A DNA stretch of 64,000 nucleotides, from contig JAJRSO010000023.1 in the NCBI GenBank assembly GCA_024278755.1, positions 1 through 64,000 on the forward strand, given 5' to 3'. Shown in pieces: positions 25,380 to 64,000 of the stretch (positions are counted from its first letter, which is position 1; every line of letters begins with the position of its first letter). The position numbers and the translations under genes are program-made. The notes beneath the pieces were generated by a model. It searched no databases and was not told where the DNA came from. It saw only the letters and a program-made list of their open reading frames with translations. The DNA is from Calditrichota bacterium. GTDB taxonomy: Bacteria > Calditrichota > Calditrichia > Calditrichales > Calditrichaceae.

Positions 25380-26129
25380 ATGTCAAAAAAAAATACTATT
25401 TTTATAAAGGGCGCGCGCGAACACAACCTTAAAAACATCGACGTGGAAATCCCGCGCGATAAATTTGTTGTAATCACCGGCCTGTCCGGTTCCGGGAAAT
25501 CCAGCCTGGCGTTTGATACGATTTATGCCGAAGGGCAGCGCCGCTATGTGGAATCGCTGAATGCCTATGCCCGTCAGTTTTTAGGACTTATGGAAAAACC
25601 GGATGTGGATTATATCGACGGCCTGTCGCCGGCCATTTCCATCGAACAGAAATCCACCAGCCGCAATCCCCGCTCCACTGTGGGAACGGTGACCGAAATT
25701 TACGATTATTTTAGATTGCTGTTTGCGCGCATCGGCACTCCGCACTGTCCCAAATGCGGACGGGTAGTGGAACGGCAGACCGTACAGCAAATGGTGGATA
25801 CCATTTTATCCTGGCCGGAAGGAACAAAACTTCTATTGCTGGCGCCGGTGATTCGCGGACGGAAAGGCGAGTATAAAGAACTGTTCAACCAGTTCCGCAA
25901 AGACGGATTTGTACGTGTCCGTGTAGACGGCAAAACGTATCAATTAGAAGATGAAATTCCGCTGGATAAAAACAAAAAACACGATTTGGAACTGGTGGTC
26001 GATCGTCTGGTTGTGGGCCCGGACATGCAAAAGCGTTTGACCGATTCGGTGGAACTGGCCCTGAAACAGGCTTCGGGTTTGCTGTTTGTGAATCGCATGG
26101 ATACAAAGGAAGATATTCTGTTCAGCTAG
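25380..26129 (+). CDS. UvrA N-terminal fragment
   Basis: 249 residues: N-terminal INVEIP-type start ([18 protein letters not shown]), Walker [15 protein letters not shown]-loop region, [11 protein letters not shown], and most of the UvrB-binding domain. It ends at the in-frame TAG. No complete ATPase site (signature and Walker B are in the other fragment). Confidence 0.8.
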
Positions 26130-26279
26130 CAGTTTGCCTGTGCGCATTGCAATCTTTCCTTTGAAGAACCGGCGCCGCGAACGTTTTCATTTAACAGCCC
26201 TTTTGGGGCCTGCCCCAACTGCGACGGCCTCGGAGCGCTCACGGAAATCGATCCGCATCTCATTGTTCCCAACGAGAAC

Positions 26280-28211
26280 TTGTCTATCAATCAGGGCGCC
26301 ATTTCCATTTTAAACAACCGCCGCGAGGGTTGGCTATACGATTTAATTGCCAGTCTGGCTGCAGAACTGAACTTTAATCTGAGCACACCCTGGAAAGATA
26401 TTCCCAAAGAGATTCGTCATATTGTTTTATATGGTCTGGGGGAGAAAAAAATCCGCTTTAAATACCGTCGCGAAAACGCCAATCTGGAATGGGACAGTAA
26501 TTATGAAGGGGTCATTAACAACCTGCTGCGCCGCTATAAGCAGACCAGTTCTAATCACGTACGGCGCTGGATCGAAGGGTATATGAATACGGTGACATGC
26601 ACCGTGTGTAGGGGAGCGCGTTTAAAACCCGAGGCTCTGGCAGTAACGATTAATGGTAAGAATATTGCCCAGCTAACCGATATGGCCATTAAAGACGCCG
26701 CAGCTTTCTTTGAGAATATCGAATTAACTAATCAACAGCGGCAGATTGCCCGCCAGATCTTAAAAGAAACCAATCAGCGTTTAAGCTTTTTAAACAATGT
26801 GGGACTGGAATATCTTTCTTTAAGCCGGGCGGCGGGAACCCTTTCAGGCGGCGAAGCGCAGCGCATCCGTTTGGCCACGCAAATCGGTTCGCAGTTGGTG
26901 GGCGTGCTCTATATTTTAGATGAACCCAGTATCGGGCTACACCAGCGCGATAACCAACGTTTGATTAAAACTTTACGTCACCTGCGTGATTTGGGCAATA
27001 CGGTACTGGTGGTGGAACATGATAAAGAAACCATCGAAATGGCGGATTATGTAATCGATTTGGGTCCGCGCGCCGGACGGCATGGCGGGGAGATTGTGGC
27101 TGCGGGAACGCCGAAAAAAATTGCCGCTCATAAAAAGAGTTTAACAGGTTTGTACCTCTCCGGTAAAAAATGCATTTCCGTACCGAGTCAGCGTAGGAAA
27201 GGTAACGGCAAATCACTGGAAATTATCGGCGCGCGCGGCAATAATCTAAAAAATCTAAATGTAAAATTTCCTCTGGGAAAACTGATTTGCGTAACCGGCG
27301 TTTCCGGTTCCGGTAAAAGCAGCCTGGTCAATGAAACCCTGTACGCGGCTCTGGCCCGGCATTTTTATTCATCAAAAAAGACGCCGCTGGCCTACAAAGA
27401 GATTCTGGGACTCGAGTACCTCGATAAAGTAATCGATTTAGATCAATCGCCCATCGGCCGGACGCCGCGTTCCAATCCGGCTACTTACACCGGTCTGTTT
27501 ACGCCGCTGCGGGATCTGTTCAGTCAGTTGCCGGAGTCAAAAATTCGCGGCTACAAACCGGGACGTTTCAGCTTTAATGTAAAAGGGGGGCGCTGTGAAG
27601 CCTGCGAAGGCGACGGGGTTAAAAAAATTGAAATGCACTTTTTGCCGGATGTGTATGTGCAGTGCGAAGTATGTAAGGGCAGACGGTACAACCGCGAGAC
27701 CCTGCAAATAAAATACAAAGGGAAATCTGTTGCCGATATTCTGGATATGACTGTGAACCAGGCGTTGGAATTTATGACCAATATCCCGGTGGTCAAACGA
27801 CGATTGCAAACCCTGGCCGATGTGGGATTAGGCTATATTCATTTGGGACAGGCCGCAACGACGCTTTCCGGCGGGGAAGCGCAACGGGTAAAACTGGCTA
27901 CCGAACTATCCAAAGTGGGCACCGGCAATACCATGTATATTTTAGACGAACCCACCACCGGCCTGCATTTTGAAGATATCAATATGCTGTTGCAGGTATT
28001 GAATCGCCTGGTGGACAAGGGAAATACGGTCATCGTTATCGAACATAATCTGGACGTCATTAAAACCGCGGACTGGGTTATTGACATCGGTCCCGAAGGC
28101 GGCGACAAAGGCGGAAGAATTATTGCTCAGGGCAGCCCGGAACAGGTGGCGAAAAAGAAAAAATCCTATACCGGGCGGTTTTTGATTCCCGAGCTTGCAA
28201 AGAAGTTTTAA
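26280..28211 (+). CDS. UvrA C-terminal fragment
   Basis: 643 residues if translation restarts at TTG 26280; nothing convincing resembles a ribosome site. It contains the first ABC signature and Walker B ([17 protein letters not shown]...[14 protein letters not shown]), the second Walker A ([12 protein letters not shown]), the second zinc module (CEACEGDG...[14 protein letters not shown]) and the second signature/Walker B ([17 protein letters not shown]...[10 protein letters not shown]). The first zinc module, encoded at about 26133-26230, would be missing from both fragments. Confidence 0.8.
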
Positions 28212-47715: not shown

Positions 47716-49236
47716 ATGGGTAATGCAGTAAGACCAGATGAAGTCTCTGCAATTCTGAAGAAACAGTTAAAAGATTTCGAAAAAGAAACAGACGTCTATG
47801 AAGTTGGCACTGTCTTGTATGTGGGGGACGGAATTGCCCGCGTACATGGCCTGGAAAAGGTGATGGCCGGTGAGCTGGTTGAATTTCCGAGTGAAGTAAT
47901 GGGTATGGTGCTTAACTTAGAAGAAGACAACGTGGGTGTTGTTTTATTTGGCGATGATACGCTGATTAAAGAAGGCGACACCGTTAAACGTACACAAAAG
48001 GTTGTACAAGTTCCCACCGGCGACGCCATGGTTGGCCGCGTGGTCGATCCACTGGGGCGTCCTATTGACGGGAAAGGCGCCATTGATACCGACCAGTTTA
48101 TTTTACTGGAACGTAAAGCAACGGGTGTCGTTACACGGCATCCCGTGGATCAGCCCCTGGCTACCGGTATTAAGCCGATTGATTCCATGATTCCTATCGG
48201 AAGAGGACAGCGTGAATTGATTATTGGCGACCGGCAAACGGGTAAAACGGCCGTGGCAATCGACACTATTATTAATCAAAAAGGCAAAGATGTAATTTGC
48301 ATCTATGTGGCCATTGGTCAAAAGGCCTCAACCGTAGCCAAAGTGGTTAAAACGCTGGAAGAATACGGCGCCATGGAACACACGGTTGTTGTAGCCGCAA
48401 ATGCCAGTGACCCAGCGCCAATGCAGTTTATCGCCCCGTATGCCGGAGCGGCAATCGGCGAATTCTTTCGCGATAACGGACGGCACGCATTGGTTGTTTA
48501 TGATGATTTAACCAAACACGCCTGGGCCTATCGTCAGGTATCACTGCTTCTGCGCAGGCCTCCGGGGCGCGAAGCCTATCCGGGCGATGTGTTTTACCTG
48601 CATTCACGCCTTTTGGAACGTGCCGCGAAACTCAATGAAAAATTAGGCGGCGGGTCTTTAACCGCGCTGCCCATAATTGAAACGCAGGCGGGTGATGTTT
48701 CCGCCTATATTCCGACCAATGTAATTTCCATTACGGACGGACAGATTTTCCTGGAATCGAATTTATTTTATTCCGGTGTGCGTCCGGCGATTAATGTGGG
48801 TATTTCGGTTTCCCGCGTGGGGGGGAGTGCGCAGATTAAAGCGATGAAACAGGTTGCCGGACGTCTGCGTCTGGATTTGGCCCAGTATCGTGAAATGGAA
48901 GCCTTTGCCAAATTCGGTTCCGATTTGGACGAAGCTACACAAAAACAGTTACGTCGCGGCGAACGCCTCGTGGAAATTTTAAAACAGGGGCAATATGTGC
49001 CCATGCCGTTTGAAAAACAGATTGTAATCATTTATGCCGGTACAAACGGCTATTTGGACGCCCTTCCGGTTAACTCTTTGGGACAGTTTGAACAAGAGTT
49101 TATCGAACATATTGAGTTAAAATATTCCGATATTTTAACAGAAATTGCCGACAAAAAAGTTTTTTCGGATGAATTGAAAGAGAAGTTAAATACGGTGATC
49201 GAAAGCTTCCTGTCCGGTTTCAAGGTTGAGGAATAA
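47716..49236 (+). CDS. atpA: F-type ATP synthase subunit alpha
   Basis: 506 residues, standard length. P-loop [39 protein letters not shown], and [34 protein letters not shown]. Non-catalytic nucleotide-binding subunit of F1. ATG 47716, AGAGGTAA upstream. Confidence 0.97.
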
Positions 49237-49238
49237 GC

Positions 49239-50108
49239 ATGGCTACTTTACGGGAAATACGGGATCGCATTTCTTCGGTAACCAGTACGCAGCAAATTAC
49301 CAAAGCAATGAAAATGGTTGCAGCGGCCAAGTTGCGCCGGGCGCAGGAGAATATTTTAGCATTCCTGCCATATTCATATGAACTACGGGGAATGATTGGG
49401 CATCTTGTAGCGCTATCGGGTGATTTAACCGAAATTCCTCTGCTGGAAAAACGTCCGGTTGAAAAAGTGTTGATCGTGGTTGTTACTTCCGATCGGGGGT
49501 TGTGCGGCGCTTTTAACGGAAATATTATCCGTCATGCCGTACAACGTATTGCCGAGTATTCCAATCGTGAAGTTGCTGTGTTTGCAGTAGGTCGTAAAGC
49601 GTATGAATTTTTCAGCAAAAGGGATTACACCGTACACGATCATGTGATCAATATATTCAACCATTTGCATTTCGAAAGCGCCGCGGATATTTCCGGGCGG
49701 CTGGTAGCGCTATATCTTGCCGAAGAATTTGATCGAATTGAAATCATCTATAATGAATTTAAATCGGCCATTCAGCAGACGCTGCGTGCAGAACAATTTT
49801 TGCCCTTTGTGCCCGATGAAGAAATGGAAAAAGCCGGCGAAGAAATAGATTTTATTTATGAGCCGGGTAAAGAAGAAATTCTGAATCAGCTCATTCCGAA
49901 ACATCTGAATGTTCAGATTTGGCGGACACTGCTGGAAAGTAACGCAGCCGAACAGGGTGCGCGGATGACGGCTATGGAAAGCGCGACCGAAAATGCGCAG
50001 GAATTGATCGAACGACTGACCATCTTTTACAATCGTTCCCGTCAGGCGGCCATTACAACCGAAATTTCGGAAATTGTCAGCGGCTCTGAAGCTTTGAAAG
50101 AAAATTAG
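49239..50108 (+). CDS. atpG: F-type ATP synthase subunit gamma
   Basis: 289 residues. N-terminal IRDRISSVTSTQQITKAMKMVAAAKLRRAQ and C-terminal ESNAAEQGARMTAMESATENAQELIERLTIFYNRSRQAAITTEISEIVSG are the paired helices of the central shaft. Starts 2 bp after atpA. Confidence 0.97.
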   Translation: MATLREIRDRISSVTSTQQITKAMKMVAAAKLRRAQENILAFLPYSYELRGMIGHLVALSGDLTEIPLLEKRPVEKVLIVVVTSDRGLCGAFNGNIIRHAVQRIAEYSNREVAVFAVGRKAYEFFSKRDYTVHDHVINIFNHLHFESAADISGRLVALYLAEEFDRIEIIYNEFKSAIQQTLRAEQFLPFVPDEEMEKAGEEIDFIYEPGKEEILNQLIPKHLNVQIWRTLLESNAAEQGARMTAMESATENAQELIERLTIFYNRSRQAAITTEISEIVSGSEALKEN

Positions 50109-50114
50109 CATTAG

Positions 50115-51527
<1,413 letters not shown>

Positions 51528-51560
51528 AAATCATCCCTCTCCGGGAGAACAGAAAAAAAT

Positions 51561-51592
51561 AAAGATGGCAGGTTCCTGTCATCTTTTTATTT
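51561..51592 (+). terminator. Hairpin/attenuator between atpD and atpC
   Basis: AAAGATGGCA (51561-51570) pairs with TGTCATCTTT (51577-51586, one G-T pair), loop GGTTCC, followed by TTTATTT. It has the form of a leaky intrinsic terminator inside the operon, 34 bp after the atpD stop; atpC starts 42 bp later. Confidence 0.7.
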
Positions 51593-51633
51593 AAGTTTAT
51601 CTCTTAATAGTCGAGCATAATAAGGAAAGTTAA

Positions 51634-52041
51634 ATGGCATCCGAACTCATTTTGGAAATTGTTACACCTTTTGGGGAAATTTTTAACGAACCAATTGTCC
51701 GTTGTACATTACCAGGGGCCGAAGGTCAGTTTCAGGTATTAAAAGGTCATGCGGCTCTGATGTCTACCATTGAAATAGGTTCAGTAAAAATTGAATTTGC
51801 GGATGCAAAGCCGGCTTACGCTGCGGTAAGTAGCGGGTTCTGTGAAATAAAAGACAACCGGGTAAAAATTATTGTCGAATCGGCAGAGTTTTCCGGTAAT
51901 ATTGATGTGGAACGTGCGGAATCATCTAAAAAACGAGCTGAAGAGAGACTTTCCTTGAAGAGCGCTGATTTTGATACTGACAGAGCAAAAGCTTCCCTAA
52001 TGCGTGCCCTCAACAGGTTAAAGGTCTCTAATTTTAAGTAA
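51634..52041 (+). CDS. atpC: F-type ATP synthase subunit epsilon
   Basis: 135 residues. The N-terminal beta-sandwich (LILEIVTPFGEIFNEPIVRCTLPGAEGQFQVLKGHAALMSTIEIGSVKI) is typical and the C-terminal helical hairpin follows (VERAESSKKRAEERL...RAKASLMRALNRLKV). Rotor subunit with possible inhibitory C-domain. Separated from atpD by 106 bp and a hairpin; a separate expression level is likely. ATG 51634 after AAGGAAAG. Confidence 0.93.
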   Translation: MASELILEIVTPFGEIFNEPIVRCTLPGAEGQFQVLKGHAALMSTIEIGSVKIEFADAKPAYAAVSSGFCEIKDNRVKIIVESAEFSGNIDVERAESSKKRAEERLSLKSADFDTDRAKASLMRALNRLKVSNFK

Positions 52042-52178: not shown

Positions 52179-54779
52179 ATGAAATCAAGAACCCTTCTCA
52201 GAAGTACTCTTTTCATCGTATTAATCTTATTCTCAAATTCTTTCGCAACCGGTGTTACCGATCAGAAACTGTTCGATTCGGCGCTTAAGTCGTATGTGAA
52301 TGATTTGGTGATCCGTCATGGTAAAAGTACCATGGACAGGGAGCGTTTTTTAGTTCAGCAGCTACGGATGATAAATGATGAAATGAAATCACGCATTACC
52401 GGTATTTCGGATATTCGCGACAACTATTTTAAGCGGCTCGACAAGCTTTTATCCGAAGTTCAGGCGCTTAAACAACGCTTATCCGGAGCAGGCACAGGCC
52501 GGTTAGCTGTTTTTGCCTCTGATGTGGAACAGAAAATTCAGGACATCATCGACAGCGGTAAGCTGAATTATAAAAAGCAAAAAGCCATCGAAGATGCCGT
52601 GCAACTATTGCATGTTGCGGAAGAAATGGTACAGCTCGACCCCAATGCCCACCTGGAATCCAATCCCGGGTTTTCTGATAACCTAAGTAAAACACAAAGT
52701 AAATTGCAAAATACATTCGGCGGCGTAAAGAAAATTAGACCCGCAGTTAAAGAAACACCGGTCACCCAGGCGACGGTTTACAATATTTATAAAGAGTGGA
52801 AAAAGACGGAGTTAATTAAATATCAGGTACGCTGGACCGATGTGCAAATCCTTAAACGGCGTCTGTTTAAAAACGGTACATCCGCCCAGCAGGAGCAGAT
52901 GTTTAAGCGTGAATTACGCCAGGCTTCCGAAGCATTTAATTATGGAATGTACCGTTTAGCCGAACGGTCTTTCTCCGAAATCCTGCGTAGTTATAAACAG
53001 CTTGGGAACATGGATGACGTGCTTTTTTTTAAAGGTCAGTCCAATTATCTGCTGGGGCGTTACCATCAGGCGGAAGAAGATTTTAATAACTTTACCATCG
53101 ATTATCCATCCTCTCAATATCTTTCCGAAGCATATTTGAATCTGATGCATATCAGTTTTCATTTTAACCGTTATGCGGATGTACTGGCCAGTTATGACGC
53201 AATGCGTTCTATGTTGCCTGCCGGCGATCCCAAAATATATCAGATGACGTTTATGGCGTCTGTTGCCGCTTTAAAAGACAATCAGTTTGAAAAATGTATT
53301 GAACTTTCGTTCGAAATTCCGTCTTCTTCGACCCTGTACAGAGAAGCGCGCTATATTTTGGCAGAAGCGTATGCGGGTATCGGTAATTATGAAGAGTCGA
53401 AAAAGGTGTTTACTACATTGATTAACGATCGCAAAATGGAACCGGAATTTCGTTTTACAATTTTACTTAAACTGGGCTACCTGAGTTATGAAGAAATGGA
53501 TTATTACGGCGCCTTAAAATATTTTGATCAGATTGCAGGAGCCTTTAGCGAATATGACCGTGTTTTAATTGGGTACGGCTGGACCTTGTACAAGATGGAA
53601 CTGGCCAAAACCAAGGTATCGGAAAGAAACTTCAGTGAAACCCAAAAATACCTCGAAGCGCTGCTGGATAATTTTTACGGTTCCGATTATCTGCTGGAAG
53701 CGCGAACGCTGTTGGCTTATACAGAACAGTTACAGGAAAATGTAGACGCCGCTCTGGAAGATTTTGAATATGTTTTTGCCGCTCGTGACGTAAAACTGTT
53801 TTCAGATAGCCTGAATTCGGAATATGATCAGTTGAGAAGCGCGATGAAAAGTGCGAAAAGTCTGCAGAACAAAGCTTTGCAGAAAAATAACCCCGCTGCA
53901 TTTGGCAAGGCGTATTCCATTGTAAAACGGTTACGCAGGCCGCTAACCCGTTTGGGGTATATGGATATGAGCGCTAGCGGAGTTGCCGTAAAAAGCGAAG
54001 TGTCCCGTTTAAACAAGCAGCTTGCCGAACTTGCCTCTCTTAAGAAAAAAGCGGAAGCGCGCGGTAAAAAAGCGCTGGTTAGACGTATTGAAGATATGCA
54101 ACTTAAAATATATCGTGCTGTTAATTCGGTTTCGGTAACACGGCAATCATCCATTGGTATGAATTATTTCGATGCCCATCCTCTGGCGCGAAAAGAGAGT
54201 GTTGTCGAAAATAATAATAAAAAAATAACGGAGTTACGGGCGGATACGCAAAAACAACGCCAGGATATTACAAGCCGGCTGACTGCGCTGGATTTTGAAA
54301 TTCAAAATGCTCGCGCCCAAAAAGATTACCGTAAAATGGTTCGTCTGGAGTTAAGCAGGGAGCGCCTGGCGGATTTTGCAAAGAAACTGGATTTTCTTGA
54401 TACACGCGTATATGCTTCAAATCCTATTAATACGGGTATTAATTTAGAATACTGGAGTAATTACAGCGCTTTTGGAATGACCAATGTCCGTTTTTCCGTC
54501 CGTTTGAAAAAGGCGGGGCAAATCGCCAGCTTCCAGAAACAAATCGAACAAATAAACGATTTTCTCGAAATTCGTAAACGGAATATAGAACATAAAATTG
54601 AGCAGATAGATGATGAGATAACTTTGATGACGCGCCGCGTTCGCCGGCAAGAACGTATACGCGAACGGGAAGAATTAAAACGTCAGTTCGAAGAAAGTTA
54701 TTTTGATACACACGATACCGAATTGAATTATGATCAGGGTACCACGCAGCCGCCTAAACTGCGTGATGAAGAAAATTAG
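52179..54779 (+). CDS. Exported TPR/coiled-coil protein of the envelope-motor cluster
   Basis: 866 residues with signal peptide MKSRTLLRSTLFIVLILFSNSFA. After a helical N-part come TPR repeats at ~245-520 (FNYGMYRLAERSFSEILRSYKQ, LLGRYHQAEEDFNNFTIDYPSSQYLSEAYLNLMHISF, GIGNYEESKKVFTTLINDR, EEMDYYGALKYFDQIAGAF), then a long Arg/Lys/Glu coiled coil to the C-terminus ending in a Tyr-rich acidic tail. Probably a periplasmic scaffold. First of seven closely spaced genes of the ExbBD/AgmX-type machine; the giant TPR gene follows 28 bp later. No individual family recognised. Confidence 0.8.
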   Translation: MKSRTLLRSTLFIVLILFSNSFATGVTDQKLFDSALKSYVNDLVIRHGKSTMDRERFLVQQLRMINDEMKSRITGISDIRDNYFKRLDKLLSEVQALKQRLSGAGTGRLAVFASDVEQKIQDIIDSGKLNYKKQKAIEDAVQLLHVAEEMVQLDPNAHLESNPGFSDNLSKTQSKLQNTFGGVKKIRPAVKETPVTQATVYNIYKEWKKTELIKYQVRWTDVQILKRRLFKNGTSAQQEQMFKRELRQASEAFNYGMYRLAERSFSEILRSYKQLGNMDDVLFFKGQSNYLLGRYHQAEEDFNNFTIDYPSSQYLSEAYLNLMHISFHFNRYADVLASYDAMRSMLPAGDPKIYQMTFMASVAALKDNQFEKCIELSFEIPSSSTLYREARYILAEAYAGIGNYEESKKVFTTLINDRKMEPEFRFTILLKLGYLSYEEMDYYGALKYFDQIAGAFSEYDRVLIGYGWTLYKMELAKTKVSERNFSETQKYLEALLDNFYGSDYLLEARTLLAYTEQLQENVDAALEDFEYVFAARDVKLFSDSLNSEYDQLRSAMKSAKSLQNKALQKNNPAAFGKAYSIVKRLRRPLTRLGYMDMSASGVAVKSEVSRLNKQLAELASLKKKAEARGKKALVRRIEDMQLKIYRAVNSVSVTRQSSIGMNYFDAHPLARKESVVENNNKKITELRADTQKQRQDITSRLTALDFEIQNARAQKDYRKMVRLELSRERLADFAKKLDFLDTRVYASNPINTGINLEYWSNYSAFGMTNVRFSVRLKKAGQIASFQKQIEQINDFLEIRKRNIEHKIEQIDDEITLMTRRVRRQERIREREELKRQFEESYFDTHDTELNYDQGTTQPPKLRDEEN

Positions 54780-54807
54780 AAAATCGTAAACCAAGTTTTA
54801 AAAGCGG

Positions 54808-57800
54808 ATGACTGCTATGATATTTCAATCAAAAAATATAAAACAGAATGCGAAATTTATCCTGCTAGCATTTTTATTTGTTATGTTCACGCAGTCTGGC
54901 ATTTTTGCTCAGGCAGCTAAAACGAACGGCGGTACGGATACCCTGTTTAATAAAATTTCGATTGAAGATTTATTGAAGATTAAACAACATTACAAAGAAA
55001 AAGTTAACGATCTGCGTAAGGAAGAGGAATCTTATCGTCTTAAGGGGATGGACTGGAGCGCTAATTTTCTTAAAGAAAAAGGTGTAAATATTGCCGATCG
55101 GGATAAGATATATATCCGTCTTGCCGAATACTATATAGAAGACGCCGAAAAAAAATATGATGCCGAAGTGGATGAGTATGACATAAAATATGATGAATAT
55201 GATAAACAACTGGCTCTCTTTGATAAAAAGCAAATTGAACAGGAACCCGTGGAACCGCAGTTTCCGAAATTTGATTATTCAAAAGCCATCGATATTTATG
55301 ATAAGTTACTAAATGAATATCCTTCCAGTGATTACGCGGACGATGCGTTGTATGGAAAGGCATGGCTTTCGGAAAAGATGAATCTGGGCGCCAAAAGCCG
55401 GCAGCTTTACCGTGAAGTAATAGATAAATATCCGGACAGCCCTTTTGCCCCGGAATCGTATATGCGGCTTGCGGAATACTATTTTGCGCCCCGTCTTGAT
55501 AAAACGGACGAAGAGCAAACCGTTTTGGAAACCAGAAAAGCCATTCAGTTATATAAAAACGTATTAAAATACAAGGGTTCAAAAAAGTACGATGAAGCGC
55601 TGTATAAGCTGGGCTGGAGTTATTATAAGTTAGCGGCGCGTGAGCCAAAATACTATAACGATGCCATTACCTATTTTATTCTTACGGCAGATGATATTGA
55701 ACGTTCTCAGAAGCTGGATCCGGCCAAAAAAATATCCAACCCGGATGTACGTAACGAAGCGATTGAATACATTGGCATCAGTTTTACCGATGACGCCTAT
55801 ACCAAGCAGGGTGTGGATAAAGCGCGGCATCTGTTGGAGCGTATAAACGATCGTCCCTACGGACCGGAAATAATGGAATCCATCGGCTCTACTTATAAAA
55901 AAATAGATGAACCCGAAAAAGCCATTTATGCTTACGAAACTTTGTTGGATATGTATCCGCAATTCGAACGTGCTCCGGAAATACAACATAATATTGCCAT
56001 GTCGCTTTATAGCGCCGGCAAAGACGCCGAGGCCTATGTGGCCCGTCAAACATTATATGAGAGTTACCGACCGTCCACCCTGTGGTATTCCGAGCTTGAA
56101 AATTCAGACAATCCCGATAAAGTGAAATACTTAAAGTCGGCTTATAAATTAAGCGAAGCGGCTTTGCGAACCAATCTGCTTTTGGATTTGGAAGCGGCTG
56201 AAGAGATGGATTCCCAAAAGCAGGACGGAACCGTTTATTATTCCAAGGTTGCGGATGAGTGTAAACTGTACCTTGACATTTTTCCGGCAGATTCTAATGC
56301 GTACGATGTGAACTGGTCCTATGCATTGCTGTTAGACAGTCGCTTGGGTCGGTTTGAACAGGCCTTTGAAGAATATATAAAAGTTAGTAATGATTATCTG
56401 GAAGACAGCCATCAGGAAAATGCGGCAATTAATGCGGTTGGCGTTGCCGATACACTGGTAAAAATGAAATATGGAACCAATGACAGCATTTCAATAAATA
56501 TTGCTGATGTCGCCAAGCTAAGTCCGGAAGAATTAACGCCCGAAGAAACGCGTTTAATAGAAGCGTATGATAACTACATTCGGCTTTTTCCGGCAGGTGA
56601 ATACACGCCAAATTTTTTAGCTTCTGCCGGCGGCATCTATTACAATCATAAAAAATTCGCCGAATCAAAAGTGTACTTTCAAACTTTGGTACGGCGTTTT
56701 CCGGGCGCCGAGCAGAAAAGTTTAGCGATGCGTTCTATTATGGATTCGTATTTTGCGCTGGGTAAGTTTAAAGATAGTGAAATGGTCGCTAAGCGCATAA
56801 TGAGCGAAAGCGCCATACCGGAAGAACAAAAGAAATTTGCCCGGACACGTATGGGGCAGGCTATTTTTAAGAACGCCGAATATTTAGAAGAGCAGGGCGA
56901 TTATTTTACAGCCGCTACAGAATATTTCCGGGTTTTTACAGAAGCCCCCGGCGAAACGAAGATGGTTGAGCGGGCGCTCTTAAACAGTGGGCTTAATTTC
57001 CAAAAATCAAAAGACTGGGTTCGTGCGGTTAGCGTTTACGATACTCTGGTAACCCGTTTCCCGAATTCCAAACTGGCCGTTCCCGCTTTGCAGAATATGG
57101 CTGAAGATTACAAAGAACTGGAACAGTATTCCAAAGCGGCGGGCGCCTACGAACGTATTTTTACCGATTTCGGTACTTCCGAAAATGTGGATGCCGCATT
57201 GTATAATGCCAGCTTCTACTATAAAAAAGGAAAAGACTGGAATAATGCTATTCGTGTAAATAATCTGTATATAAAAACCTTTCCGAAACAAAGTTTTGCC
57301 ACCGATTTATTTTTTACCAATGCCGAGCTGTATTTAAAACTAAACAATGTTGCGGAAGCTAACAAGATTTACGAGCAATTTGCAAAACGTTTCCCGGATG
57401 ATCCGCGTACGGTATCCGCTTACTATGAACGCGGTAAATATTATCTCGAGAATGGACAAACAGCACTGGCTAAGGTAGAGTTTAATAAGGCAATTGCCCA
57501 AAGCGAAAATTTTAAGAAAAAGGGAAAAGACCCCAATCCTTTCATAGCGGGAGAAGCTGTGAATTCACTGGCAGAAATTCTGCATAAAGAATTTATTTCC
57601 AATAGGCTCACGCAACCGCCAAGTAATATAAAAGCAAAGCTGGCTTCAATGCGTTCTACGATGAAAAAACTGAACTCAAATTATAGTAAAGTGCTTTCCT
57701 TTGGTTCGCCACGCAGCTTTGAAGCGGTTTTTAATATTGCCCGTTCCTATGAAGAATTCGCGAAAATCTTTACCATGCAGGAAATCAATCCGGATTTAAA

Positions 57801-59607
57801 TGAAACCAAGGCTTTCGTAGAAAAAAAGAAAATAAACGAACAATCTGCCGGTTTATACGAAAAAGCGGTTGAACAATATAAAAAGGCTATCGAAAATATT
57901 CCTGTAATTGCTCAGAAGCTGGGCGTGAATATGGAAGCGCCTGAAGTTGCCGAACCGTCACAGGTCGATACCGTAGCTTCGGAAGATGAAGTAAAACGTG
58001 CGGTTGAAACCGATTCCACACGGGAGTTGGCGCATAAATGGTATTCCAAAGCCAAAGATAAAATATCGGAATTGCTTTATACAGAGGCCTCTTTAACCTC
58101 CGAAAACGTACAGCAGGCTATTCAGATGAAAGCGCCCCAAAAAGATCCGGTACAGCGTATTATTTTCCGTCGCGCAATTCTTTCGAAGGTTGCGGCGCCA
58201 GCCGTTAAACAGACCATTGCCGCCCATATCCGAAATATTCAGGAAGCGGAGGCGCTTGGCTTATCTAATAAATATGTGGAAGAATCGAAACGTCAGGTGT
58301 TACTTACTTCCAATATAATCGGCAGCGAGTTGGAAGTAATTGCTACCTCTGCATTTACCGAATATCAACGTTTAACAGCCGAAACGGCGAACCTGGTAGA
58401 AAAAGAATTCGGCTCCAAAACCGCCCGGGGACTGGATTATTACGGACTCGATAACGATGCCAACCAAATGCTGGATTACGTAAAGATTTTATCGCAGGAT
58501 GTATTAAATGCCTACGCAAAAACACTGATTCTGGCTGAAGAAAACAACATTAAAAATGATTTGGTGAAAAATACGCAGGAACGTCTGGTACGTTATGCGG
58601 TTGAAAAAGCGGATATGTTATCGGCAGAAGCTGAAAAGGCAAAAGAAAAGAGCGCCTACTATCAGGTGCGGTTCGACAGCACCGAAAACTACAATTACGA
58701 TGATGCGGCCGGTTTCTTCGAAAACTATATGTTTTCTCTGACCGATAATGCAAAAAGTATTATGGAACAGGCTTTTGAATATCAGCAGCAGTATGCTATA
58801 AACAACTTGTGGGCAAATAAATTGTTATTGCGTCTGATCCGGCTCGACCCGATTACCTATTCGGCAAATATCGAAAAAGAACGGGTTGAAATCTATTCGG
58901 ATGAAGACTGGAAATACTCCACTACCTATTTTGCCGAACAGTGGACAAAACCCGATTTTGATGACAGTAACTGGAAATATGCGGTGGTAATTCCCAGTAC
59001 CGATAACCCGTTTGCTATCCTAAATGTGAATCCTCAGGCAATCTGGACGCTTCAGCCGCAGGCGGAAGCCACATTACCCGTTGCCGACAGCACCTACCGG
59101 GATTCGAGTGTTTTTGCCGATTCTACGGTTGCCGACAGTATGATGTCTGCTTCGGCCGATTCCGCCGCGGGAATTACAGACACAGTCGCATTCGTTAACA
59201 CGGATAGTCTGGTCTTCTTCAGACGAACATTTGATTTGTCCGGTACGCCGTTGGGAGGCTCTATTTATATCACTGCCGACGACGACTACCGCGTATACCT
59301 GAACGGCGAATATCTGATGGATGATGAATCCAATGCGTACGCCGTGCTTGATTCGCTGGATTTTTACACACTGGAAGTGTATCTTAAAAAAGGAAAGAAT
59401 GTAATAACCATTGATGTTGAAGATAAAAACCTGACGGCAGGCGGTCTTAAATTCTATTCGTATTTTGAACTTTTACCGGCCGATGTGACAGCCGCAGCAG
59501 AAGAAAAAGCTAAAGTGAAGAAGGTATTTGTCGAACCTGATCTACTCAGAAAAGTCAACATCCTAAATAAAAATCGCATATCCCTTAGCAAAGGAAACAA
59601 AAAATGA
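54808..59607 (+). CDS. Giant exported TPR protein with C-terminal beta-sandwich
   Basis: 1599 residues, the largest gene here. Signal peptide at ~10-35 (FILLAFLFVMFTQSGIFAQ). From ~100 to ~1000 runs a long series of TPR repeats (AIDIYDKLLNEYPSSDYADDALYGKAWL, AIYAYETLLDMYPQFERAPEIQHNIAMSLY, RAVSVYDTLVTRFPNSKLAVPALQNMAEDY, EANKIYEQFAKRFPDDPRTVSAYYERGKYYL and others), like YbgF/CpoB and BamD but far longer. A helical part follows, then at ~1370-1570 a domain with FAEQWTKPDFDDSNWKYAVV and IYITADDDYRVYLNGEYL, resembling galactose-binding-like beta-sandwiches. Likely the main periplasmic adaptor of the motor complex. Start could also be ATG 54817. Confidence 0.8.
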   Translation: MTAMIFQSKNIKQNAKFILLAFLFVMFTQSGIFAQAAKTNGGTDTLFNKISIEDLLKIKQHYKEKVNDLRKEEESYRLKGMDWSANFLKEKGVNIADRDKIYIRLAEYYIEDAEKKYDAEVDEYDIKYDEYDKQLALFDKKQIEQEPVEPQFPKFDYSKAIDIYDKLLNEYPSSDYADDALYGKAWLSEKMNLGAKSRQLYREVIDKYPDSPFAPESYMRLAEYYFAPRLDKTDEEQTVLETRKAIQLYKNVLKYKGSKKYDEALYKLGWSYYKLAAREPKYYNDAITYFILTADDIERSQKLDPAKKISNPDVRNEAIEYIGISFTDDAYTKQGVDKARHLLERINDRPYGPEIMESIGSTYKKIDEPEKAIYAYETLLDMYPQFERAPEIQHNIAMSLYSAGKDAEAYVARQTLYESYRPSTLWYSELENSDNPDKVKYLKSAYKLSEAALRTNLLLDLEAAEEMDSQKQDGTVYYSKVADECKLYLDIFPADSNAYDVNWSYALLLDSRLGRFEQAFEEYIKVSNDYLEDSHQENAAINAVGVADTLVKMKYGTNDSISINIADVAKLSPEELTPEETRLIEAYDNYIRLFPAGEYTPNFLASAGGIYYNHKKFAESKVYFQTLVRRFPGAEQKSLAMRSIMDSYFALGKFKDSEMVAKRIMSESAIPEEQKKFARTRMGQAIFKNAEYLEEQGDYFTAATEYFRVFTEAPGETKMVERALLNSGLNFQKSKDWVRAVSVYDTLVTRFPNSKLAVPALQNMAEDYKELEQYSKAAGAYERIFTDFGTSENVDAALYNASFYYKKGKDWNNAIRVNNLYIKTFPKQSFATDLFFTNAELYLKLNNVAEANKIYEQFAKRFPDDPRTVSAYYERGKYYLENGQTALAKVEFNKAIAQSENFKKKGKDPNPFIAGEAVNSLAEILHKEFISNRLTQPPSNIKAKLASMRSTMKKLNSNYSKVLSFGSPRSFEAVFNIARSYEEFAKIFTMQEINPDLNETKAFVEKKKINEQSAGLYEKAVEQYKKAIENIPVIAQKLGVNMEAPEVAEPSQVDTVASEDEVKRAVETDSTRELAHKWYSKAKDKISELLYTEASLTSENVQQAIQMKAPQKDPVQRIIFRRAILSKVAAPAVKQTIAAHIRNIQEAEALGLSNKYVEESKRQVLLTSNIIGSELEVIATSAFTEYQRLTAETANLVEKEFGSKTARGLDYYGLDNDANQMLDYVKILSQDVLNAYAKTLILAEENNIKNDLVKNTQERLVRYAVEKADMLSAEAEKAKEKSAYYQVRFDSTENYNYDDAAGFFENYMFSLTDNAKSIMEQAFEYQQQYAINNLWANKLLLRLIRLDPITYSANIEKERVEIYSDEDWKYSTTYFAEQWTKPDFDDSNWKYAVVIPSTDNPFAILNVNPQAIWTLQPQAEATLPVADSTYRDSSVFADSTVADSMMSASADSAAGITDTVAFVNTDSLVFFRRTFDLSGTPLGGSIYITADDDYRVYLNGEYLMDDESNAYAVLDSLDFYTLEVYLKKGKNVITIDVEDKNLTAGGLKFYSYFELLPADVTAAAEEKAKVKKVFVEPDLLRKVNILNKNRISLSKGNKK

Positions 59608-59915
59608 AAAAAGGAATAGCGCTGTTTTTAGCAGTTTCCGGGGTTTTGATATTTAGTTCCAAAGCGACAATCGCTCAGGATGTGGGCAATAATGTAATCG
59701 AATTAAAAACCGCCGAAATTAAGGTAAAAATCGAAACGCCGCAGGTAAAACTGTACAGCAGTCGTATCAAACCCGAATTTGATGATGTGAATCTCGAAAA
59801 ATCATTTAAAAAAGAAATCATTGGTCTTGGCGAAACCTTTGAAATAAAAAAAACAATTCGACCTAATACAACAAAGCGAATTAATATAGATAAGCTATTA
59901 AAGAAATTACGATAA
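59604..59915 (+). CDS. Small exported protein of unknown function
   Basis: 103 residues overlapping the giant TPR gene in ATGA, so translationally coupled. Signal peptide MKKGIALFLAVSGVLIFSSKATIAQ; the mature ~78 residues are charged (20-odd Lys), with repeats of K-x-E-T/I-K type and no cysteine or known motif. I do not recognise it. Being within the motor operon, it may be a small periplasmic partner. Confidence 0.7.
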   Translation: MKKGIALFLAVSGVLIFSSKATIAQDVGNNVIELKTAEIKVKIETPQVKLYSSRIKPEFDDVNLEKSFKKEIIGLGETFEIKKTIRPNTTKRINIDKLLKKLR

Positions 59916-59938
59916 TTAATTAGTGGAGGGATTCTTCT

Positions 59939-60595
59939 ATGTTTTTAGTGCAGTTTGGTAAATCATTTGCCTGGTCAGCGGAAGGTGCGGTGTTTATGTA
60001 CGCCATCGCTTTATTTGCAGCTTTAGCGGTTGCAATTGCTGCTGAAAGGATTTATTACATTGTTGTACGCTCCAATGTGAACGCTGATAAATTTATGGCT
60101 GAAATTAGAAAACTGGTTGCCGGTGGAAATATGGAACGTGCCATTCAGCTCTGTGAAAAGGGGAAAATGAAAGCGCTTCCGTTTGTTGTACTTCGCGGTC
60201 TTAAAAGAGCAAATGAAAGTGAAGAACTTGATTTCAGAGCTATTCAGAATGCCGTTGACGAAGGCACACTGGAAGTAATTCCGAAACTAAAAGAACGAAC
60301 AAACTATCTTTCTATGCTGGCAAACGTTGCAACATTGACCGGTTTAATGGGAACGATTTACGGCCTTATCTTATCATTCCAGGCGGTTGGTAGCGACTCC
60401 GTTTCCGAAGCCGATAAAAGCCGGATGCTGGCAGCCGGTATCGCTGCTGCCATGAATACGACTATCTTTGGTCTGATGGTCGCGATTCCCACATTGATTA
60501 TTTATACCTACATTGCAAATCGTACCAGTAAAATTATTGATGAGCTGGACGAGCATCTTGTTAAATTAATCAACCTAATTACCGGCAACCGTTAA
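59939..60595 (+). CDS. MotA/TolQ/ExbB-family proton channel protein
   Basis: 218 residues, three membrane helices (about 18-36, 120-150, 160-185). TolQ/ExbB signatures: a cytoplasmic loop with IRKLVAGGNMERAIQLCEKG and the pore region LSMLANVATLTGLMGTIYGLILSFQAVG...LAAGIAAAMNTTIFGLMVAIPTLIIYTYI. Forms the ring of a proton-driven motor around an ExbD/TolR dimer. Strong GTGGAGGG ribosome site. Two ExbD-like genes and an AgmX-like gene follow at once. In this arrangement AglR of Myxococcus gliding is the closest concept, by context and not by measured similarity. Confidence 0.93.
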   Translation: MFLVQFGKSFAWSAEGAVFMYAIALFAALAVAIAAERIYYIVVRSNVNADKFMAEIRKLVAGGNMERAIQLCEKGKMKALPFVVLRGLKRANESEELDFRAIQNAVDEGTLEVIPKLKERTNYLSMLANVATLTGLMGTIYGLILSFQAVGSDSVSEADKSRMLAAGIAAAMNTTIFGLMVAIPTLIIYTYIANRTSKIIDELDEHLVKLINLITGNR

Positions 60596-60618
60596 GCACT
60601 TTCCGAAGGAATTAAATT

Positions 60619-61170
60619 ATGGCTTATAAACCTTCATTACGCCGCAAAAGTGATGAACTGGACATGGAACTGGATATTCGTCCGGTCATGAACCTGATGG
60701 TTGTGCTGATTCCGTTGCTCATCGCGGGTGCGGAGTGGGTAAAATTAGGCATAATCGAAATTAATGTACCGCCGGCAAAAACAGGCGGCCCCGGAACCGG
60801 TGACGATCAGAATGAACAAAAGGAACAAGCCAAAAAACTTGGTTTAACCATTGCCGTTTCTGAAACAGGTATTACCATTGGAAATGCCGGTATGATTCTT
60901 TCCGGTGAAAAAGGGGAAGGCCCTACCGTCGAGAGAAAAGAAGACGGCAGTTACGATTATGCAGTATTCAGAGAAAAACTTATCGAAATCAAAAAGAAAA
61001 TAATTGGCCAGGGATTTGTCGATGAAAATCGGGCGGTACTTACGGCTTCGGCAGATATTGAGTACCAGATTATCGTGGATATTATGGACAACCTTCAGAC
61101 CTATAAAGACGATGAAGAAAAAGTTCATGCCCTGTTTCCCGAAATAAACTTCAGTAAAATACTACAATAA
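60619..61170 (+). CDS. ExbD/TolR-like protein with Asn in place of the channel Asp
   Basis: 183 residues. One membrane helix (~23-40), then a periplasmic domain with IEINVPPA and an end of ExbD type (ADIEYQIIVDIMDNL). In TolR and ExbD the helix carries an essential Asp (PLLDVLLVL in TolR); here the matching stretch is DIRPVMNLMVVLIPLL, with Asn25 at that place. It therefore probably cannot carry protons by itself. Ribosome site AAGGA. The next gene is a second ExbD-like protein that keeps the Asp. Confidence 0.88.
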   Translation: MAYKPSLRRKSDELDMELDIRPVMNLMVVLIPLLIAGAEWVKLGIIEINVPPAKTGGPGTGDDQNEQKEQAKKLGLTIAVSETGITIGNAGMILSGEKGEGPTVERKEDGSYDYAVFREKLIEIKKKIIGQGFVDENRAVLTASADIEYQIIVDIMDNLQTYKDDEEKVHALFPEINFSKILQ

Positions 61171-61195
61171 TTGCTGAATGACGGAGTAAAGTTCA

Positions 61196-61684
61196 ATGGC
61201 GTTTCAACCATCAAAATCCAAAAAGAATCTTAAAGAAGAAGAGGGTGCATTAAATATGAACTCGATGATGGATATGATGACCATCATCCTATTGTTCCTG
61301 CTTAAATCTTTTTCTACCGAAGGCGCATTAATTACCCCTTCGGAACAGCTACGACTTCCTGTTTCACAGCAGGGCGAAAAACCAAAAAAGGAACTGACGG
61401 TTTCCATTGCTAAAAACAGTTTAATGGTAAACGATGCAGTGATTATGGACGTGGCTGATATTGGAAAAGAGGTAATGCTCATACCGCCGCTTGCCAGCAG
61501 ATTATCGGACTATGCGGCTCAGGAACATGAACTGGAAATTGATGTGGGTAAAGAGTTTACACATGAAGTAATTATAGAGGGTGATGAAAAGATCCCTTTT
61601 GAACTTCTCTTTAAAGTGATGTACACCTGCAGCAAAACCGAGTTCTATAAAATGAGGCTCTTAACCGTAAAAAAGGGCTCTTGA
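61196..61684 (+). CDS. ExbD/TolR-like protein with the channel Asp
   Basis: 162 residues. Membrane helix ~24-40 with Asp26 in LNMNSMMDMMTIILLFLL, the protonatable residue of ExbD/TolR. Periplasmic domain with VSIAKNSLMVNDAVIMDVADIG and HEVIIEGDEKIPFELLFKVMYTCSKTEFYKMRLLTVKKGS, typical ExbD ending. Likely pairs with the Asn-bearing paralogue upstream inside the TolQ/ExbB-like ring. GGAG upstream of ATG 61196; 25 bp after the first paralogue. Confidence 0.9.
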   Translation: MAFQPSKSKKNLKEEEGALNMNSMMDMMTIILLFLLKSFSTEGALITPSEQLRLPVSQQGEKPKKELTVSIAKNSLMVNDAVIMDVADIGKEVMLIPPLASRLSDYAAQEHELEIDVGKEFTHEVIIEGDEKIPFELLFKVMYTCSKTEFYKMRLLTVKKGS

Positions 61685-61725
61685 CCAGTTAGTTAAATTC
61701 TGTCAATAAAGAAAGAGTTGTGAAC

Positions 61726-62805
61726 ATGCCAAATGTACAACATGCCCAAAGGGGATCCGGAGGTTTTAAGTTAGTTTCTTTCCCAAAAGAATTCGAACGG
61801 AATTTCTGGGAAGAACTGGATCGGCGTTTTTATATTATTCTGTTAAGTTCTCTGGCAATTGTTTATGGAATTATTATTTTTATGGCCAATACAGAATATT
61901 CTTCAGATTTTGTAGAAAACCAGATCCGGGAGAAATACTTAAAAAAGTTTTATGAGGCCGAATTCGTTACCGAAACACCGGTTGAAAAAGTAGATGAAAC
62001 CGGTCCCGGAATGGGAGAAGAAGAAAAGAAAGAAGAACCGAAAAAAGATGAGCGTGCCGTAAAAGATCAGGGAAAACGGGCCGAGGTAAAGGGCCAGTCG
62101 GCTGCCGAACGTCGGGCTGCTGCTCGTGCAAAAGCTAAGAGAAGAGGACGTCAGAGAAATAGTATGGAACAATCCATTGCCGGGCAGGGCGTATTTGCCG
62201 AGTTATCTGCCGGCGGCGGTGGCGGTTCAGGAGAAGCGGTGGCCGATGTACTTGGTGACGACGCGGCAGGCGGTTTCGGAAATCTGGACGAAGTTCTTAG
62301 CGGAGTTGGCGGATTGCAAACGGCGACTTCATCTTCGAGACGTTCACAGATGGGCGCCCGTAAGCTGGGTGGCGGCGCATCCGGTACAGCCGGGATTGAC
62401 GACCTGATTAAAGGCGGTATCGGTCAGACCACTTCTAAGAGTATTGCACGCCGCGGTGATTTTTCTATTCGTTTCGAAAAAGGAAGCGTAAGTGGAAAAG
62501 CGTCAAAATCCACGTCCCGTTCGGCAGAAGCTATCGGTCGGGTTGTTACGCAGCATCAGGATGCTGTAGAGAATTGTTATCGTAAAGAAGCGCGTTTAAA
62601 TCCAAATCTTAAGGGAAGTATTGCCATACAGTTTACCATTCAGCCAAACGGTCGGGTCGCCCGTGTTAAAATCACCCGGTCTACGCTGAAGAACAGAAAA
62701 GTAGAATCCTGCGTAAAACGACGCGTAAGTAGCTGGCGTTTTCAGGCAATCAATCCCAAAGAGGGCAGCGTTACCTTTAGCCAAAAATTTGTATTTAGTA
62801 GTTAA
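61726..62805 (+). CDS. TonB-like protein with AgmX/PglI C-terminal domain
   Basis: 359 residues from ATG 61726 (spacing from GAAAGAG fits better than GTG 61720). Cytoplasmic N-terminus, one membrane helix (~35-53: FYIILLSSLAIVYGIIIFM), an acidic/basic Lys-Glu-Pro stretch (~80-130), a Gly-rich low-complexity region (~155-240), and a C-terminal domain with VENCYRKEARLNPNLKGSIAIQFTIQPNGRVARVKI...VESCVKRRVSSWRF, two conserved Cys. This is the AgmX/PglI tail domain, related in role to TonB: it carries motor force across the periplasm. Last gene of the cluster; a perfect terminator follows. Confidence 0.88.
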   Translation: MPNVQHAQRGSGGFKLVSFPKEFERNFWEELDRRFYIILLSSLAIVYGIIIFMANTEYSSDFVENQIREKYLKKFYEAEFVTETPVEKVDETGPGMGEEEKKEEPKKDERAVKDQGKRAEVKGQSAAERRAAARAKAKRRGRQRNSMEQSIAGQGVFAELSAGGGGGSGEAVADVLGDDAAGGFGNLDEVLSGVGGLQTATSSSRRSQMGARKLGGGASGTAGIDDLIKGGIGQTTSKSIARRGDFSIRFEKGSVSGKASKSTSRSAEAIGRVVTQHQDAVENCYRKEARLNPNLKGSIAIQFTIQPNGRVARVKITRSTLKNRKVESCVKRRVSSWRFQAINPKEGSVTFSQKFVFSS

Positions 62806-62827: not shown

Positions 62828-62856
62828 AAAGCCGCATTTTTGCGGCTTTTTTTTTT
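62828..62856 (+). terminator. Perfect intrinsic terminator closing the motor cluster
   Basis: AAAGCCGCA (62828-62836), loop TTTT, TGCGGCTTT (62841-62849), then T-run to 62856. GC-rich 9-bp perfect stem, 23 bp after the AgmX-like stop codon, separating the cluster from aspS. Confidence 0.96.
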
Positions 62857-62908
62857 GTATCCTACTCAATTACTAAGTAGATTGTGCGCCGTTTTATGGA
62901 GAAAAAAT

Positions 62909-64000
62909 ATGACCCGAACACATACCTGTGGTGCCTTAAACAAAAAAAACCTGGGACAAAAAGTTGTTTTGACCGGATGGGTAAATAAATGGCGAGACCT
63001 GGGCGGTTTGATTTTTATTGATTTGCGCGACCGTTACGGCAAAGTGCAAACGGTGTTTAATCCGGAAGAAAACGCGGAGGTCTATGAACAGGCCAAAGCG
63101 TTGCGCAGCGAAGATGTAGTTGAAATTAAGGGAACCGTTTCCGCCCGTCCGGACACTATGATTAACCAAGAAATGAAAACCGGCGAAATCGAAATTGCCG
63201 CTTCTTCCTTTCGTATTTTAAATAAAGCGAAAACTACACCGTTTGAAATTTTAGATGATATCGAGATAAATGAAGAATTGCGTTTAAAATACCGTTATCT
63301 GGATTTGCGACGTAGCAGCCTGCAGCGAAATTTACTGGTTCGCAGCAACGTGTATCATATTATCCGCGATTATTTTTATAAGAATGAATTTTTAGAAATT
63401 GAAACGCCTATCCTGATGAAAAGTACGCCGGAAGGCGCTCGCGATTTTTTAGTGCCTAGCCGAAACTATCCCGGGCGGTTTTATGCTTTGCCACAATCAC
63501 CCCAAACCTATAAACAATTATTAATGGTAGCCGGATTTGACCGCTATTTCCAGGTGGTGAAGTGTTTCAGGGATGAAGATTTACGTCGTGACCGTCAGCC
63601 GGAGTTTACGCAGAGAGATGTGGAGATGTCCTTCGTTGATGAAAATGATATTATTCGGATCGGTAGCGAACTGGTACAAAAGGTATTTAAAGAGGTTCTC
63701 GATATTTCCATGGAGATGCCTATCAAACGCCTGACTTTTAAAGAAGCATTTGAACGGTTTGGTTCGGATAAACCCGACTTACGTTTTGGGATGGAAATTC
63801 ACCGCTTAAATGAAGTGTTTACAAATTCCGATTTTAACGTTTTTAGCAGTGTGCTTGCATCTGACGGGGAAATAGCAGCGCTTGTGGTAAAAAACGGCGC
63901 CGATTTTAGTCGTAAAAAAATTGATAAATTAATCGACCGTGCCAAAGAATTAGGCGCAAAAGGGTTGGCCTATTGGAAATATCAGCAGGGAGAATTTTCT
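62909..64000 (+). CDS. aspS: Aspartyl-tRNA synthetase (partial, 3' end outside)
   Basis: 364 residues visible from ATG 62909, with GGAG 9 bp upstream. Class II synthetase charging tRNA-Asp. The N-terminal anticodon-binding OB domain (VVLTGWVNKWRDLGGLIFIDLRDRYGKVQTVF) leads to motif 1 region (RSNVYHIIRDYFYKNEFLEIETPILMKSTPEGARDFLVPSR), QSPQTYKQLLMVAGFDRYFQ, and motif 2 (FRDEDLRRDRQPEFTQRDVEMSF). The bacterial insertion domain starts near residue 285. Motif 3 is beyond the edge. Whether it is the discriminating or Asn-mischarging type cannot be told. Confidence 0.96.
   Translation, partial: MTRTHTCGALNKKNLGQKVVLTGWVNKWRDLGGLIFIDLRDRYGKVQTVFNPEENAEVYEQAKALRSEDVVEIKGTVSARPDTMINQEMKTGEIEIAASSFRILNKAKTTPFEILDDIEINEELRLKYRYLDLRRSSLQRNLLVRSNVYHIIRDYFYKNEFLEIETPILMKSTPEGARDFLVPSRNYPGRFYALPQSPQTYKQLLMVAGFDRYFQVVKCFRDEDLRRDRQPEFTQRDVEMSFVDENDIIRIGSELVQKVFKEVLDISMEMPIKRLTFKEAFERFGSDKPDLRFGMEIHRLNEVFTNSDFNVFSSVLASDGEIAALVVKNGADFSRKKIDKLIDRAKELGAKGLAYWKYQQGEFS

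Follow-up and report, generated by a model that had tools for sequence, protein, structure and literature searches.

We analysed a window of 64,000 nucleotides from a Calditrichota bacterium (assembly GCA_024278755.1, contig JAJRSO010000023.1, positions 1 to 64,000 of the forward strand), focusing on an operon for a putative trans-envelope motor related to the Agl-Glt systems. The open reading frame (ORF) listing of the window gives seven rightward ORFs at 52179-62805 on the plus strand, with gaps of 28, -4, 23, 23, 25 and 35 bp between them, which we name T1, T2, S3, Q4, D5, D6 and G7 in 5' to 3' order. An earlier interpretation of this DNA made from its letters alone (hereafter the sequence-only reading) had described seven closely spaced rightward genes followed by a terminator and coding for two tetratricopeptide repeat (TPR) proteins, a small exported protein, an ExbB-like ring protein, two ExbD-like proteins and an AgmX-type transducer. 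The ORF gaps and a hairpin with a T run bear out this layout, and the Pfam and NCBIfam scans agree with the assignments. The genes, with the domains and codons discussed below, are:

52179..54779, plus strand: T1, exported all-helical TPR protein of 866 aa, GltC-like by bridging (ORF, Pfam/NCBIfam profiles, structure model)
54808..59607, plus strand: T2, exported TPR scaffold of 1599 aa in a GltD-like position (ORF, profiles)
57979..58860, plus strand: T2 residues ~1058-1351, bundle of long antiparallel helices (AlphaFold2 model)
58879..59475, plus strand: T2 residues ~1358-1556, beta jelly-roll domain (AlphaFold2 model, Foldseek)
59604..59915, plus strand: S3, small exported protein of 103 aa (ORF), always between T2 and the ring gene
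59939..60595, plus strand: Q4, ExbB/TolQ/AglR-type ring protein of 218 aa (MotA_ExbB, 85 bits)
60619..61170, plus strand: D5, first ExbD-like protein, AglQ orthologue, 183 aa (ExbD profile, ExbD tree)
60691..60693, plus strand: D5 Asn25 codon, at the position of ExbD Asp25/TolR Asp23/AglQ Asp28
61196..61684, plus strand: D6, second ExbD-like protein, AglS orthologue, 162 aa (ExbD profile, ExbD tree)
61271..61273, plus strand: D6 Asp26 codon, retained proton-binding Asp aligned to ExbD Asp25
61720..62805, plus strand: G7, GltG/TonB-like transducer of 361 aa (ORF, profiles; possible ATG start at 61726)

The ring protein Q4 scores 60 bits against the TolQ equivalog profile (cut-off 221) and 43.6 bits against that of ExbB (cut-off 206); it keeps the channel residues Thr139 and Thr175, and the Glu of the TolQ-like GIS-E motif is replaced. 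In the ring tree Q4 falls among the rings of Agl-type operons, including those of genomes with a bona fide GltG, and apart from the TolQ-like and ExbB rings of its own genome. The ExbD profile matches D5 and D6 with 37.5 and 56 bits, respectively, and in the ExbD tree every D5 protein lies on one side of a branch with support of 94; because the AglQ-type proteins share this side, D5 is regarded as the AglQ orthologue. Searching 385 genomes with a Q4 profile, together with 60 fetched loci, revealed a large clan of T1-T2-S3-ring-ExbD-ExbD-transducer operons distributed over many lineages, including Myxococcota and other deltaproteobacteria. As judged by these profiles and trees, the window operon falls within this Agl-Glt core-complex clan and outside the Tol-Pal and TonB systems. 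The sequence-only reading had claimed kinship with the Agl/Glt world, distinct from Tol-Pal, and this claim survives: both trees and the TolQ score support it, the ring and ExbD proteins are not squarely TolQ and TolR, and no tolB, pal or receptor gene adjoins the operon. A candidate co-variation of ring residues (loss of Glu170, Thr174) with the D5 residue gave striking counts, yet a single independent pair was well supported, and we do not claim it.

In shafts of the ExbD family one Asp in the membrane helix binds the transported proton. In D5 this position, opposite the Asp in the profile alignment to the solved ExbD and TolR chains, is occupied by Asn25, which is invariant in 17 aligned homologues; Asp26 of D6 is likewise invariant in 17 homologues. 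When the position was read in each fetched operon, the combination Asn/Asp (D5/D6) was found in 24/24 Calditrichota operons. Outside Calditrichota (n=84), 69 operons have a non-Asp residue in D5 and Asp in D6, 11 have Asp in both, 4 have Asp in D5 and a non-Asp residue in D6, and 0 are without any Asp; the replacing residue in D5 is mostly Asn, with some cases of Ser, Gly and Ala. The four swapped operons (L187, L189, L196, L199) are deltaproteobacterial; their first ExbD carries Asp, and the second has Gly or Ala at the site. The probability that all four D6 losses would fall within the minority whose D5 bears Asp is 0.0007 for independent loci and 0.03 if they stand for two events. Mapped onto the ring tree, the non-Asp label is scattered through the clan and requires 5 changes.

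In a genome whose GltG is bona fide (1033 bits, cut-off 650), two ExbD proteins, of 162 and 194 aa, come after a single ring gene, and both have Asp; these are also the lengths given for AglQ and AglS (PMC3169522). In Myxococcus, the AglQ-D28N substitution abolishes both proton conductance and movement (PMC3858216), and by the alignment the Calditrichota D5 carries an exchange of this type as its normal state. A compensating acid elsewhere in the D5 membrane helix was considered and rejected, the Glu near residue 41 not being conserved. Nothing decisive was found in the open literature on one-site MotB dimers or on ExbD with Asn, which is weak evidence of novelty. On balance we lean slightly towards the view that these operons form a large and ancient class of 5:2 envelope motors whose shaft is obligately mixed and has a single proton-binding Asp, wherein one-site loss is the rule, in either partner and never in both, Asp in both is the gliding-motor state, and the Calditrichota shaft is a natural AglQ-D28N.

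The surroundings of the operon comprise the following features:

47716..52041, plus strand: atpA-atpG-atpD-atpC, the kept upstream neighbours, ending 137 bp before T1
62828..62849, plus strand: strong intrinsic terminator, a hairpin with a 9-bp stem and a T run
62870..64000, plus strand: aspS (start approximate), the kept downstream neighbour, continuing beyond the window

The order T1-T2-S3-Q4-D5-D6-G7 is unchanged in all fetched Calditrichota loci, with atpC directly upstream in 24/24 and aspS downstream in 22/22 of those whose flank was in reach, the window included. T2 homologues occur in nearly all member genomes, and the ring is present in 36/40 Calditrichota genomes; the four misses are 72-88% complete, and every genome that is at least 90% complete has the ring. 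Because the locus is stable, single-copy and universal, the operon looks like a vertically inherited housekeeping system. The same atp/aspS neighbours recur in other phylum-level lineages (L061, L098, L100, L101) and in KSB1 or unclassified loci (L168, L170, L176, L177). Thus the gene order, whose comparison in relatives the sequence-only reading had proposed, is kept both phylum-wide and in further lineages; the fixed atpC/aspS position and the missing catalytic Asp of D5 are features absent from that reading. Two further observations concern the window at large: an 11-pair hairpin with a T-rich tail lies between atpD and atpC (51561-51586) and is possibly an attenuator within the atp operon, and uvrA (25380-28211) is split in two ORFs (25380-26129 and 26280-28211), which suggests a frame break or an assembly error.

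Elsewhere the same genome has flagellar genes and a separate ExbB-ExbD-ExbD-TonB locus. A further ring system of this genome is a trio of tonB/tolA-like, tolQ-like and tolR-like genes next to a homoserine-dehydrogenase-type gene (L036; G000:C6:44000-61000); neither tolB nor pal accompanies it. For TolB and Pal, 0/39 genomes yielded a match over cut-off, with the control genomes over cut-off being 2/14 for each family.

The first three genes of the operon all code for proteins with signal-peptide-like stretches at the N-terminus. The structure model of T1 is entirely helical, with a TPR solenoid (~235-520) followed by a long helical bundle and an 85-residue terminal helix, which in this model could span much of the periplasm. 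The GltC model NF033756 does not match the window T1; T1 homologues from other lineages (L111, L107, L134) score 37-46 bits. T2 scores 117 bits against TIGR02795 (YbgF/CpoB; cut-off 90), and its N-terminal two thirds are homologous to a TPR protein of ~1100 aa that occupies the same place in GltE-bearing loci. AlphaFold2 predicts the C-terminal 560 residues of T2 as a long-helix bundle and a beta jelly roll (mean pLDDT 81). The jelly roll resembles the sugar-binding domains of glycoside hydrolase family 2 glucuronidases, rhamnosidases and PA14 (Foldseek probability 1.00, best E ~1e-3, a local match of ~100 residues), and a weak Bac_rhamnosid_N match was found in the same region. In two relatives a jelly-roll-like end of this kind has a small gene of its own, placed after that of the TPR protein and before the ring (L114 4567-5385, L115 3064-3780).

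Many loci with a shorter T2 have an additional gene of ~330-600 aa between T2 and S3; in L062 its product (394 aa) reaches 69 bits against the GltE model NF033758. The Calditrichota operons have no GltE-type gene, the matches elsewhere in the genome being weak TPR matches. The C-terminal part of T2 was considered as a fused GltE and rejected: its profiles miss the GltE-like ORF of L062, and AlphaFold2 predicts it as a helical bundle with a jelly roll, not as TPR. S3 matched no family in the Pfam and NCBIfam scans.

G7 has a short N-terminus, one transmembrane (TM) helix (~37-57), a Gly-rich linker and an AgmX/TonB_C tail (62521-62799) with two Cys that are invariant in the homologue alignment. 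This tail scores 103 bits against the AgmX/PglI model NF033768 (cut-off 40), and the TonB_C profile also matches it. Against the GltG model NF033760, G7 reaches 99 bits, below the equivalog cut-off of 650, and aligns with the second half of GltG only (322-646), the cytosolic N-terminal half being missing. In place of the SxxxH docking motif of TonB/TolA, the TM helix of the Calditrichota G7 reads SxxxY; L062 keeps SxxxH. With regard to the group A genes of the Myxococcus gliding motor (gltA, B, F, H, I, J, K), the search covered proteins with an AgmX tail and found one orphan paralogue. This second AgmX-tail transducer (332 aa, one TM helix; G000:C77:4607-5602, L214:793-1791) has no ring gene nearby and is kept at a separate place in ~34/40 Calditrichota genomes. 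AglR serves both GltG and NfsG (PMC3858216), and the Calditrichota motor may similarly serve two transducers. In one member genome (G027), two successive G7-like transducer genes follow D6 (L058 12360-14706).

The complex as such has been known since 2011, when an Agl-Glt core complex of gltC, gltD, gltE, gltG, aglR, aglQ, aglS and one extra gene was described from Gammaproteobacteria, Geobacter and Fibrobacter (Luciano et al. 2011, PMC3169522). It shares with the window operon a single cluster with one ring gene, two ExbD genes, a GltG-type transducer, TPR proteins and one extra gene, and it occurs in non-gliding hosts; S3 would be the counterpart of the extra gene. The window operon differs in the absence of GltE, in a longer T2 with a helical bundle and jelly roll, in its single copy and constant place between atpC and aspS, and in the Asn at the AglQ position. 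The Fibrobacter core complex appears to be FSU_2397-2403 of Fibrobacter succinogenes, which has the order TPR, TPR, one gene not listed, ExbB, ExbD, ExbD and TonB-family, likened here by its description; members of the set are more abundant on cellulose, and the authors read it as a TonB uptake system (PMC6851124). The Myxococcus xanthus AglRQS-Glt motor likewise combines a ring, two unlike ExbD proteins and an AgmX-tail transducer, but has Asp in both ExbD proteins (in the Myxococcus-type genome), a GltG of ~650 aa with a cytosolic part and many further Glt proteins. Tol-Pal shares the 5:2-type ring and shaft families and a CpoB-like TPR protein, whereas the window set has neither TolB nor Pal, a ring under the TolQ cut-off and two scaffolds of 866 and 1599 aa. 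Clusters of the type TPR-TolQ-TolR-TolR-vWA (PMC12204202) also have a TPR gene, a ring, two unlike TolR genes and then a transducer, albeit with a von Willebrand factor A (vWA) tail in place of the TonB/AgmX-like one. Of the distinct envelope machine envisaged by the sequence-only reading, the separateness from Tol-Pal holds, whereas it is not a new kind and motility is the weaker reading. New, so far as the open literature shows, are the phylum-wide fixation beside the atp genes, the one-Asp shaft rule with its swapped cases, and the jelly-roll end.

From the parts, their order, the phylum-wide conservation, the Asp/Asn pattern and the predicted folds, we consider it probable that the operon encodes a trans-envelope machine of the Agl-Glt core-complex family that runs on the proton motive force, has a one-site mixed shaft and serves a constant envelope need and not gliding. 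In the stoichiometry that we infer, five Q4 would form a ring around a shaft of one D5 and one D6 helix; D6 Asp26 alone would bind and release the proton, and D5, with its Asn25, would be the permanently uncharged partner. Proton flow would turn or rock the shaft against the ring, and the use of one site instead of two would entail a doubled step or a rocking motion. As for the direction of force, G7 would dock on the ring via its TM helix and its pull would pass through the flexible linker and the TonB-like tail to its putative partners, T1 and T2, near the outer membrane; the cargo could be a surface or periplasmic sugar polymer, possibly held by the jelly-roll end of T2. Its role would likelier be the maintenance of the outer membrane, recognisable TolB and Pal being absent from the phylum, or the movement of a surface or periplasmic polymer, than gliding; Agl-Nfs moves spore-coat polymer (PMC3858216).

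Several points weigh against this model. We found no demonstration in the literature of single-site operation of a 5:2 motor, and no function has been established for the core complexes known so far (PMC3169522). The support in Calditrichota comes from sequence and predicted folds, the T2 jelly-roll match is local (~100 residues) with sugar binding predicted from the fold, and with a separate TolQR/TonB-like trio (L036) in the genome a Tol-like job is perhaps already filled. Finally, D5 might be a regulator or plug outside the shaft, the working shaft being a D6 homodimer with two Asp as usual. A D5:D5 pair could not work, leaving an unlike pair or a regulatory D5 as the remaining choices; D5 is unable to carry protons and D6 is complete, as a regulatory D5 would have it. 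However, the D5 and D6 genes co-occur side by side, and the four deltaproteobacterial operons with Asp in D5 and its loss in D6 fit a mixed shaft better than fixed roles; because of these swapped cases we favour the unlike pair and consider a regulatory D5 unlikely.

The operon could also be a Tol-Pal substitute that draws the outer membrane inwards during division, T1 and T2 replacing CpoB, TolB and Pal. The lack of TolB and Pal matches over cut-off, the YbgF/CpoB score of T2 and the universal presence of the operon beside the atp genes would agree with this, but the YbgF score may reflect a general likeness among TPR proteins, OmpA/Pal-like and TolB-propeller-like proteins are still numerous, and a TolQR-like trio is encoded elsewhere; we regard the substitution as doubtful. 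Decidedly less probable is a true gliding motor that drives Calditrichota surface movement as AglRQS-Glt does in Myxococcus, despite the identical motor composition, the AgmX-tail transducer and the conserved ring-less second transducer, which recalls the GltG and GltJ pair. The core complex is insufficient for gliding and present in non-gliders (PMC3169522), the operon lacks GltE and its G7 the cytosolic GltG module, and the AglQ orthologue bears the very substitution that stops the Myxococcus motor (PMC3858216). Moreover, Caldithrix abyssi shows only occasional tumbling and has flagellar genes but no Bacteroidetes-type gliding genes (PMC5317091), the source genome too encodes flagellar genes, and a phylum-wide, housekeeping-like locus differs from a gliding motor. 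A TonB-type energiser for outer-membrane receptors, suggested by the TonB_C match of the G7 tail, is very improbable given the separate ExbB-ExbD-ExbD-TonB locus, the absence of a receptor gene nearby, the large TPR partners foreign to Ton systems and the ring score far under the ExbB cut-off.

Rotary models of MotAB, ExbBD, TolQR and AglRQS assume two equivalent Asp sites used in turn, each proton giving a turn of 36 degrees (PMC12215075). According to a review, it is unknown whether AglQ and AglS form like or unlike dimers (PMC9389320). The existence of a widespread one-site relative makes both the two-site assumption and the pairing question testable through natural mutants. For the Calditrichota, the operon points to a putative motor that is kept phylum-wide beside the ATP synthase genes in the absence of recognisable TolB and Pal.

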